Shown one piece after another: positions 14,223-47,492 of a stretch of DNA of 64,000 nucleotides. The DNA is taken from NCBI GenBank assembly GCA_015521735.1, contig WANQ01000003.1, positions 1 to 64,000 on the forward strand. The letters are read 5' to 3'. Made by a program: the position numbers and the translations under genes. Position 1 is the first letter of the stretch. Each line of letters starts with the position of its first letter. The notes beneath the pieces are model-generated. The model was not told the origin of the DNA, made no database searches, and saw only the letters and a program-made list of their open reading frames with translations. This DNA is from Pyrodictiaceae archaeon (lineage in GTDB: Archaea; Thermoproteota; Thermoprotei_A; Sulfolobales; WANQ01).

Positions 14223-14341
14223 TGGTGGGGCCGCCGGGATTTGAACCCGGGACCACCAGCGCTCCGGGGACCCCAGTATTAGGGGGTTGTAGCGGGGACT
14301 CCTCCCCAGGCTGGCATCCTACCAAGCTAGACGACGGCCCC
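14223..14341 (-). tRNA. tRNA-Pro(GGG), 42-nt intron, CCA encoded
   Basis: Acceptor GGGGCCG/CGGCCCC, T-arm CCCGGGTTCAAATCCCGG, encoded ACCA; removing 14262-14303 gives loop CU-GGG-GC closed by CCAGC/GCUGG. Confidence 0.96.
14262..14303 (-). other. tRNA intron at canonical position 37/38 with bulge-helix-bulge
   Basis: 4-bp helix CUGG/CCGG flanked by 3-nt bulges GG^A and AG^C; inner helix GGA/UCC and CCCC/GGGG. Confidence 0.88.
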
Positions 14342-40548: not shown

Positions 40549-40612
40549 ACTTGGATGATGAGTACTCCCGACACAGAAAATATGACGAGAAGGCATTTGG
40601 CTGACTACTATC
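40549..40612 (+). ncRNA. Candidate box C/D sRNA
   Basis: C ATGATGA 40555-40561, N12 GTACTCCCGACA, D' CAGA 40574-40577, C' ATGACGA 40582-40588, N12 GAAGGCATTTGG, D CTGA 40601-40604. Confidence 0.78.
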
Positions 40613-44242: not shown

Positions 44243-44508
44243 GCAAAGTAGATAGCGAACTAGATTCTAGGAAACTATTAAGAGCTTTAAAACTCCCAAT
44301 AGTATTGTTAATCTATGGATGGATAGGAATAATACTACTAGGCGTATGGGCTAAAATACTAGTAGAAACACCATTACACTCTAACCCAATAATAAGGTCA
44401 ACAATAGTATTCATAGCCTTCACCATACCAGCACTAATATGGCTATATATTTGGAGGAAAATAGCAAAACACTATAGAAATAAAATCCTCCAAGCCGGAA
44501 AAGAATAA
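44239..44508 (+). CDS. Small two-TM membrane protein, unknown
   Basis: 89 aa, two hydrophobic helices, 4-nt overlap with upstream gene. Confidence 0.6.
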   Translation: MSKVDSELDSRKLLRALKLPIVLLIYGWIGIILLGVWAKILVETPLHSNPIIRSTIVFIAFTIPALIWLYIWRKIAKHYRNKILQAGKE

Positions 44509-44573
44509 TAGATGAAGAACTTGACCGCTACAGATAAAGTCAAGGTATGAAGAGAAAGGTAGCCACAGATAGA
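44508..44573 (+). ncRNA. Candidate variant box C/D sRNA (A)
   Basis: ATGAAGA 44512-44518, N12, CAGA 44531-44534, N12, ATGAAGA 44547-44553, N12, CAGA 44566-44569. Confidence 0.6.
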
Positions 44574-44575
44574 CT

Positions 44576-44636
44576 CGGGGGATGAAGACACTTGCCCCCC
44601 AAAGATTGGTGAAGAAATTACCGTGGTCAGACCCCT
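44576..44636 (+). ncRNA. Candidate variant box C/D sRNA (B)
   Basis: GGGG-ATGAAGA 44582-44588, N12, degenerate D' AAAG/AAGA, GTGAAGA 44609-44615, N12, CAGA 44628-44631-CCCC terminal stem. Confidence 0.66.
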
Positions 44637-44733: not shown

Positions 44734-45081
44734 TTGGCTAATGCTACTGGTCATGTAAGGGATTTGCTTGAATCTAGGGGCTTTAGGGTTAGTGTTGATA
44801 CTGTTCGTGTTCGTAGCTTGCTTGGCGACGTTGTTCTTTTTGAAAGAGTTATTGGTGTTGTTGAAGGAAAGATTAGGATTTCATGGAGGTATTGGCCTAG
44901 GCTTAATAGATGTGAAATTAATATTAGTATTTATGGAGGCGGAGATGTTGCTGAGGAATTAGAGTCTAAGGGTGTTATCGTAGAAGTTGTAGATGACACT
45001 GTCTATGGTAAGATTAAGGTTAAAGGTAATGGAGTCGATAAGCTCAAGGAAATAGTTGACATAGTTCATGGTATTGGTTAG
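44734..45081 (+). CDS. Uncharacterised 115-aa protein
   Basis: TTG start with GGTGG; coding-like composition. Confidence 0.6.
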   Translation: MANATGHVRDLLESRGFRVSVDTVRVRSLLGDVVLFERVIGVVEGKIRISWRYWPRLNRCEINISIYGGGDVAEELESKGVIVEVVDDTVYGKIKVKGNGVDKLKEIVDIVHGIG

Positions 45082-46488: not shown

Positions 46489-47448
46489 ATGCCTACTCTA
46501 TCAGAAATAGTTAGGCAAGCACAATCTATGAGGACTCAGCCTAAACTACTAAGTGAGCTAGTAGAGGAATCTATATCCATACTAAGGGATGAAAGAAGTA
46601 ACTCTAATAATAGAGTTAATGGTGGTGTAATACTTCCATCCAACACCAGGTTTATAGTAATAGGTGATATTCACGGAGACTTTGATACACTAGTGAAGAT
46701 ATTGTCTAAAACAGATGCTATAAGATTCCTAGAAGATAAACGTGGCTACCTGGTATTCCTAGGCGACTACGTTGATAGAGGTAGAAGCCAGGTAGAGTCC
46801 GTCTCCCTAGTACTCTTATTGAAGAAGCATTATCCGGATAGAGTAGTAGTTCTAAGAGGTAATCATGAACCACCACCTGAACTACCACCATATCCTCACG
46901 ACTTCCCGTATGTTCTACAAGCATATTATGGTAGCCTAGGCATAGAGATATATAACAGGTTTAAGGAATGGTTCAACGAGCTACCATATGTTGCTATAGC
47001 TAAGAACGAAATATTATTCCTCCACGGAGGTCCACCAACAAGAGTTTTAGATGAGTGTAATGGTCTAGAGGATTGTTTAGGCCTAGAATCATATCCTCCA
47101 AGCATTAGCATATTAGAGGAAGTTCTATGGAATGATCCCGTAGAGTATATAGACTATACGGCTCCATCGCCTAGAGGTGCTGGTGTAGTATTCGGCCCTA
47201 AAGTTACGCGTAAAGTACTTGGATTACTAGGTGTTAAGGCGATTGTAAGAGGACATGAACCAGCTATGGAAGGCTATAAACTTAACCACGATGGAAGAGT
47301 TCTCACATTATTCTCAAGGCTAGGAGAACCATATTTTAACGAGAAGGCAGCATATATGGTTGTAGATACAAGAGTTCCGTCATGGGAGGTAGACTTAACA
47401 GAGTGGATTAGAAAGATAAGCGTAGATGAGGAACCCGAAGTTAGCTGA
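46489..47448 (+). CDS. PPP-family serine/threonine protein phosphatase
   Basis: VIGDIHGDFDTL, FLGDYVDRG, VVLRGNHEPP. Confidence 0.94.
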   Translation: MPTLSEIVRQAQSMRTQPKLLSELVEESISILRDERSNSNNRVNGGVILPSNTRFIVIGDIHGDFDTLVKILSKTDAIRFLEDKRGYLVFLGDYVDRGRSQVESVSLVLLLKKHYPDRVVVLRGNHEPPPELPPYPHDFPYVLQAYYGSLGIEIYNRFKEWFNELPYVAIAKNEILFLHGGPPTRVLDECNGLEDCLGLESYPPSISILEEVLWNDPVEYIDYTAPSPRGAGVVFGPKVTRKVLGLLGVKAIVRGHEPAMEGYKLNHDGRVLTLFSRLGEPYFNEKAAYMVVDTRVPSWEVDLTEWIRKISVDEEPEVS

Positions 47449-47492
47449 AGGATAGTGAGTAGAGTGTGATGAAACCTCGTTGTACTGATACA
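47420..47492 (+). ncRNA. Candidate box C/D sRNA overlapping phosphatase 3' end
   Basis: C ATGAGGA 47426-47432, N12 ACCCGAAGTTAG, D' CTGA 47445-47448, C' GTGATGA 47466-47472, N12 AACCTCGTTGTA, D CTGA 47485-47488. Confidence 0.6.

Follow-up and report, generated by a model that had tools for sequence, protein, structure and literature searches.

Two probable tandem box C/D sRNA genes with A·A k-turn pairs and covariation of the 3b·3n pair in archaeal guide RNAs

We find that positions 44512 to 44631 of the window (the whole 64,000-nucleotide stretch of DNA analyzed here) very probably hold two tandem archaeal box C/D sRNA genes with A·A at the 3b·3n position of their k-turns, unit 1 carrying a predicted guide to tRNA-Gln and unit 2 predicted guides to 16S rRNA. 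The A·A combination is one state of a covarying pair and not the hallmark of a separate RNA family. The boxes, conservation, and guide complementarity of the units were observed computationally, as was the covariation. The C/D sRNA identity of both had been proposed in an earlier note on this DNA, and it is now supported by orthologues and by guide-target pairing.

Box structure and register of the two units

Unit 1 (44512 to 44569, forward strand) follows the layout C-N12-D'-N12-C'-N12-D, with box C ATGAAGA at 44512 to 44518, box D' CAGA at 44531 to 44534, a spacer on the same strand at 44535 to 44546, box C' ATGAAGA at 44547 to 44553, and box D CAGA at 44566 to 44569. Unit 2 (44582 to 44631, forward strand) is arranged as C-N12/13-D'-C'-N12-D, with box C ATGAAGA at 44582 to 44588, box C' GTGAAGA at 44609 to 44615, box D CAGA at 44628 to 44631, and a degenerate D' box that can be read as AAGA (44602 to 44605) or as AAAG (44601 to 44604). 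All boxes were recovered where the earlier note had placed them, and the GGGG...CCCC bracket that it saw around unit 2 is present as GGGGG (44577 to 44581) and CCCC (44632 to 44635), so that the unit with its terminal stem spans 44577 to 44635 on the forward strand. A small ORF ends at 44508, with unit 1 beginning 3 nucleotides past its stop, and the next ORF downstream of both units starts at 44734.

Box C position 5 and box D position 2 are, as we take them from k-turn nomenclature, the 3b and 3n nucleotides. On this assignment both 3b·3n pairs of unit 1 and the terminal pair of unit 2 are A·A. The earlier note had joined each box C to the D' box that follows it in a C-N12-D' module; the register of that module holds, whereas its use as a k-turn pairing does not, the true partners being C with D and C' with D'. 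The A·A claim survives this correction because every partner pair of unit 1 is A·A. The k-turn core RUGAxGA/CxGA (sheared G·A and A·G pairs, 4b-4n G-C) is found in all four boxes of unit 1 and in boxes C, C', and D of unit 2, while the D' box of unit 2 keeps its GA only when read as AAGA, and then without the 4n C. Since the obligatory GA is thereby retained, AAGA with a 13-nucleotide guide, which the earlier note had offered as an alternative, fits better than AAAG. Guide lengths are 12, 12, 12 to 13, and 12 nucleotides, against an expected 10 to 13 or so for archaeal C/D sRNAs; the commonest length in our catalogue of 160 sRNAs (among the matches listed) is 12.

Three exact copies of RTGAAGA-N12-CAGA lie inside 120 bases, and the whole window holds four against 0.16 expected, a number reached by none of 100 shuffles; the fourth copy, at 46693, is within an ORF. 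A genome-wide scan for RTGAAGA-N10-13-CAGA, suggested in the earlier note, revealed no enrichment (19 matches versus 34 for the reversed control). The modules are distinguished by register and clustering, not by the pattern alone. Minimum-energy folding of the single RNAs was no better than that of shuffles, a result not out of the ordinary for C/D sRNAs, and a scan for bacterial-type promoters and terminators, with models not suited to archaea, gave nothing above chance. A repeat or CRISPR-like array was rejected, with no repeat families found and guides that differ from one another.

We note three further elements in the window. A four-box C/D-like element at 40555 to 40604 (forward strand; ATGATGA/CAGA/ATGACGA/CTGA) has a terminal U·U and an internal C·A pair. 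Another, at 47426 to 47488 (forward strand), overlaps the 3' end of the ORF at 46489 to 47448, the TGA stop of which lies inside the D' box; such overlap of stop codon and sRNA has been described for other archaeal sRNA genes. An intron-containing tRNA gene, apparently tRNA-Pro, at 14226 to 14341 (reverse strand) was found by Rfam and missed by ARAGORN.

Predicted targets in tRNA-Gln and 16S helix 18

Searching the own genome for the complement of the unit 1 guides, as the earlier note had advised for guides and tRNAs, led to tRNA-Gln. The D' guide ACTTGACCGCTA (44519 to 44530, forward strand) forms 11 Watson-Crick pairs with the D-arm of both tRNA-Gln genes, and in both the D'+5 position falls on G18 (tRNA numbering assigned by hand). 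The genome contains the core 10-mer of the guide complement, AGCGGTCAAG, at three places only: antisense to the guide itself and in the two tRNA-Gln sequences. One of these genes, tRNA-Gln(UUG) (L152), was called by ARAGORN and has no intron; the other, tRNA-Gln(CUG) (L153; G000:C38, around 64139), was recognized by eye and has an intron after the anticodon. In ten relatives, neither the 16S nor the 16S-23S regions held a match to the unit 1 guides that was better than those of shuffled guides. Unit 1, which had been left without a target in the earlier note, is therefore predicted to be a tRNA-Gln guide and not an rRNA guide. For its D guide GAAAGGTAGCCA (44554 to 44565, forward strand) no target was found, yet the guide is conserved; two other genomic matches to it were set aside as they are not tRNAs and look unrelated.

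The prediction is that unit 1 would direct 2'-O-methylation of tRNA-Gln G18. In Sulfolobus acidocaldarius, C/D guidance has been proposed for G18 of tRNA-Gln(UUG), and methylation was observed there (PMC7668247). The guide proposed in that species and unit 1 share the predicted target nucleotide, and we liken them by target only, not by sequence, unit 1 being distinguished by its two A·A k-turns. The combination of a tRNA guide (D') with a D guide for which no target was found also resembles a pattern described in Pyrobaculum, where a tRNA guide shares its RNA with a targetless guide (PMC7994747).

For unit 2, the own assembly proved to be without 16S in 19-mer and Rfam searches, and we therefore used the 16S of relatives (G001, of the same family, and nine others). 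The D' guide CACTTGCCCCCC (44589 to 44600, forward strand) forms 11 Watson-Crick pairs with 16S GGGGGGCAAGTC, and the D guide AATTACCGTGGT (44616 to 44627, forward strand) forms an 11-bp pairing, including two G·U, with GCCGCGGTAATA, which starts 23 nucleotides beyond the start of GGGGGGCAAGTC in the 16S of G001. The neighboring 16S targets that the earlier note had proposed are thus upheld on actual sequences of relatives. Most unit 2 orthologues carry the D guide ATTACCGCG, with full complementarity. When aligned to the E. coli sequence, D+5 is C528, and D'+5 is G505 with the 12-nucleotide guide or G504 with the 13-nucleotide (AAGA) guide; these positions sit in the two halves of the helix-18/530-loop pseudoknot region. 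Unit 2 would then direct methylation of C528 and of G505 (or G504) in 16S helix 18.

Predicted C/D methylation in archaea is known to cluster in helix 18, and Tte sR114, Iho sR21, Pca sR28, and Sac sR115 are likewise dual guides to two neighboring helix-18 sites (PMC4644070). The sites differ, however: those four sRNAs target the equivalents of E. coli A535 and G515, whereas the sites predicted for unit 2 are C528 and G505/504.

Conservation and covariation of the 3b·3n pair

Both units were recovered by DNA search of 60 relatives and have orthologues across the order, with boxes and guides kept across families, and the conservation in related genomes that the earlier note had left to be looked for is thereby in place. 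In two genomes of the same family (G002 and G003), unit 1 keeps every box and its A·A pairs, and in G012 its terminal k-turn is again A·A. Elsewhere the state changes: in G022 and G032 the terminal pair is G-C and the internal one, formed by D' CGGA and C' GTGAAGA, is A·G, and G019 has a terminal U·U and an internal G-C (G019 and G032 were read by eye because their boxes deviate at other positions). Unit 2 orthologues occur in many genera of the order, several with a degenerate D' box, and their terminal pair is A·A in the own genome and in G027 (with a 15-nucleotide guide), U·U in G003, C·C in G022 and G032, G-C in G012 and G017 (and in G011 if the guide-nearest box is used), A-U in G021 and G059, A·G in G007, and G·U in G041 and G031. 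The two units also adjoin in genomes of three families (f1, f7, and f10), which supports the proposed tandem arrangement. With orthologues of both units switching state, about seven 3b·3n pair types appear in the same RNAs of relatives, and the notion of a separate A·A family, put forward in the earlier note, is rejected.

The flanking flavin-reductase gene has its named relatives mainly in Desulfurococcales and other Thermoproteota, which points to a Desulfurococcales-like archaeon as host. In same-family genomes, another C/D-like element lies just behind this gene (L035 from 2070; L044 from 385); none was noticed there in the window.

The own genome is also rich in canonical U·U sRNAs. A C/C'/D pattern in which the 3b and 3n positions were left free gave 39 matches there versus 12 in the reversed control. 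Among the matches listed, 30 own-genome sRNAs have all four boxes, with U·U in the terminal k-turn of 19 and in the internal k-loop of 9. Together with 98 from relatives in the order and 32 from genomes drawn across the phylum, the latter serving as an independent set, they make up the catalogue of 160 four-box sRNAs (again among the matches listed), in which both 3b/3n positions are free and the other box positions are held at consensus. Mutual information (MI) across the catalogue is 0.364 for C'5-D'2 and 0.334 for C5-D2, compared with 0.066 and 0.068 in within-genome shuffles, and was reached by 0 of 3,000 shuffles. The non-partner pairs of the 160 sRNAs (C-D', C'-D, C-C', and D'-D) are near background. 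When each guide family is represented by a single sRNA (n = 76), a sampling that handles the kinship of orthologues only in part, partner MI is 0.50 and 0.55 (0 of 3,000 shuffles). Within the independent set alone, it was reached by 9 and 2 of 5,000 shuffles, and the own genome by itself gives a modest signal (14 of 5,000 for the terminal and 294 of 5,000 for the internal pair). Some catalogue entries may be coding-sequence noise, which is expected to dilute covariation and not to create it.

Enrichment is seen for U·U, A·A, C·C, G-C, and A·G, with A·A observed 32 times against 14.0 expected (P = 2e-9); A-U and G·U are common, and U·A, U·G, and U·C occur less often than expected or not at all. 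The concerted change from U·U to A·A, which the earlier note had read from these boxes, is strongly supported by this covariation and its non-partner controls, and because 3b·3n covaries, we regard the pair, not the letters, as being under selection. Such covariation may already have been described for Pyrobaculum sRNAs (Lui et al. 2018). C/D sRNAs of G067, from another family of the phylum, often have C·C, G-C, or A·G at 3b·3n, which suggests lineage preferences. A further candidate in the own genome (G000:C30:107969-108025), with guides AAACTACGGCGACA and ACAGTCCCGCAA, has A·A in both k-turns.

Three other readings of these data were weighed. That the units are decayed or chance C/D-like sequence, with boxes drifting without function, could be argued from the departure of the boxes from RUGAUGA/CUGA, the degenerate D' box of unit 2, and Rfam scores under the gathering cut-offs; against this stand the retention of both units across families with guides intact, box deviations that are paired changes and not random ones, and guides that match a tRNA and 16S, and we hold decay to be extremely improbable. 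Hardly more credible is independent drift, in which base composition or lineage acts on the two positions separately and shared descent, not pairing, brings A5 and A2 together. Related sRNAs do have states in common, and the internal signal is weak in the own genome alone, but none of the 3,000 within-genome shuffles reaches the observed MI, also when one sRNA per guide family is taken, non-partner pairs stay near background, and orthologues switch both sides together.

The third reading concerns unit 1 only, which might be an mRNA 3'-UTR or antisense element with an incidental match to tRNA-Gln, as its start so close behind an ORF stop and the lack of a target found for its D guide could indicate. 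An incidental match would, however, have to extend over 11 Watson-Crick pairs in both tRNA-Gln genes and place D'+5 exactly at G18, a predicted C/D target seen methylated in S. acidocaldarius (PMC7668247), and a tRNA guide paired with a targetless one is a described pattern in Pyrobaculum (PMC7994747). This reading is very unlikely too, if slightly less so than the other two, and two tandem box C/D sRNA genes remain the reading that we favor.

Assembly, pair states, and detection

Units 1 and 2 resemble archaeal box C/D sRNAs in box order, GA dinucleotides, 12-nucleotide guides, tandem genes, dual guides to nearby 16S sites, and a place close behind a protein gene, and they differ from RUGAUGA/CUGA sRNAs in having A·A at 3b·3n in place of U·U, for which archaeal C/D k-turns show a strong propensity (PMC5689011). 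We infer from sequence that both units would be expressed, bound by protein, and engaged in methylation, and that their evolution would have run along the lines given below. L7Ae would bind the C/D k-turn and the C'/D' k-loop of each unit and recruit Nop5 and fibrillarin, with methylation expected at the nucleotide paired 5 nucleotides upstream of D or D'. The 3b·3n pair would adjoin the tandem sheared G·A pairs, with A·A there taking the place of U·U. The sheared G·A core is what L7Ae recognizes, and a k-turn with G-C at 3b·3n, which metal ions by themselves fail to fold, does so upon addition of L7Ae (PMC4382518); by analogy, since L7Ae recognizes this core and folds even the G-C k-turn, the A·A k-turns of units 1 and 2 should be tolerated as structural equivalents of U·U.

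Selection would hold a compatible pair (U·U, A·A, C·C, A·G, G-C, A-U, or G·U) and avoid U·A, U·G, and U·C. A U in the second position of box D would accept U, A, or G in the fifth position of box C as its partner, and the counts hint at one-step routes between states, one leading from U·U through A-U to A·A and another from U·U through G·U to G-C. A variable 3b·3n pair is also known from U4 snRNA and ribosomal Kt-7, in which it may be G-C, G-U, or A·G and sets ion-induced folding (PMC4382518). The archaeal sRNAs are similar in this variability, with the difference that those RNA classes each have a preferred pair, whereas the sRNAs form one class that draws on many pairs within a single genome. 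A bolder view, which we consider unlikely, is that 3b·3n can be tuned separately in every guide RNA of these archaea and that selection adjusts sRNP assembly one RNA at a time. Each k-turn and k-loop would then have its own ion dependence and assembly order, with A·G self-folding, G-C and G·U strictly protein dependent, and A·A and C·C perhaps in between.

On the reading preferred here, that of a covarying pair, the choice of pair matters for detection. The k-turn test of SnoReport 2.0 demands at least one U in the 3b·3n pair (PMC5249026), and both units, being A·A, fail it. Among the matches listed, the same would hold at the terminal k-turn for 36 of the 160 sRNAs in the catalogue and, within the own genome, for 5 of 30. 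Rfam at its cut-offs has no match on either unit. In a permissive search, four of the five best matches were archaeal C/D families (sR11, sR23, sR43, and sR32), in register on the units, with best scores of 12.6 to 14.3 bits versus cut-offs of 39 to 45; the sR families are guide specific. The earlier note was therefore right, as far as SnoReport 2.0 and the Rfam cut-offs are concerned, to suspect that standard searches miss such RNAs.

Teaching and searches alike treat box C and box D as fixed consensus words, but the structural pair connecting them covaries, and strict consensus searches would overlook sRNAs in which it has been interchanged. The pair grammar would provide a simple rule for improving such searches, natural test sets for the tolerance of L7Ae toward 3b·3n, and, for the two units described here, checkable methylation predictions at tRNA-Gln G18 and 16S C528/G505. 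With the covariation there is also direct comparative evidence that archaeal guide RNAs form the C/D k-turn and the C'/D' k-loop.
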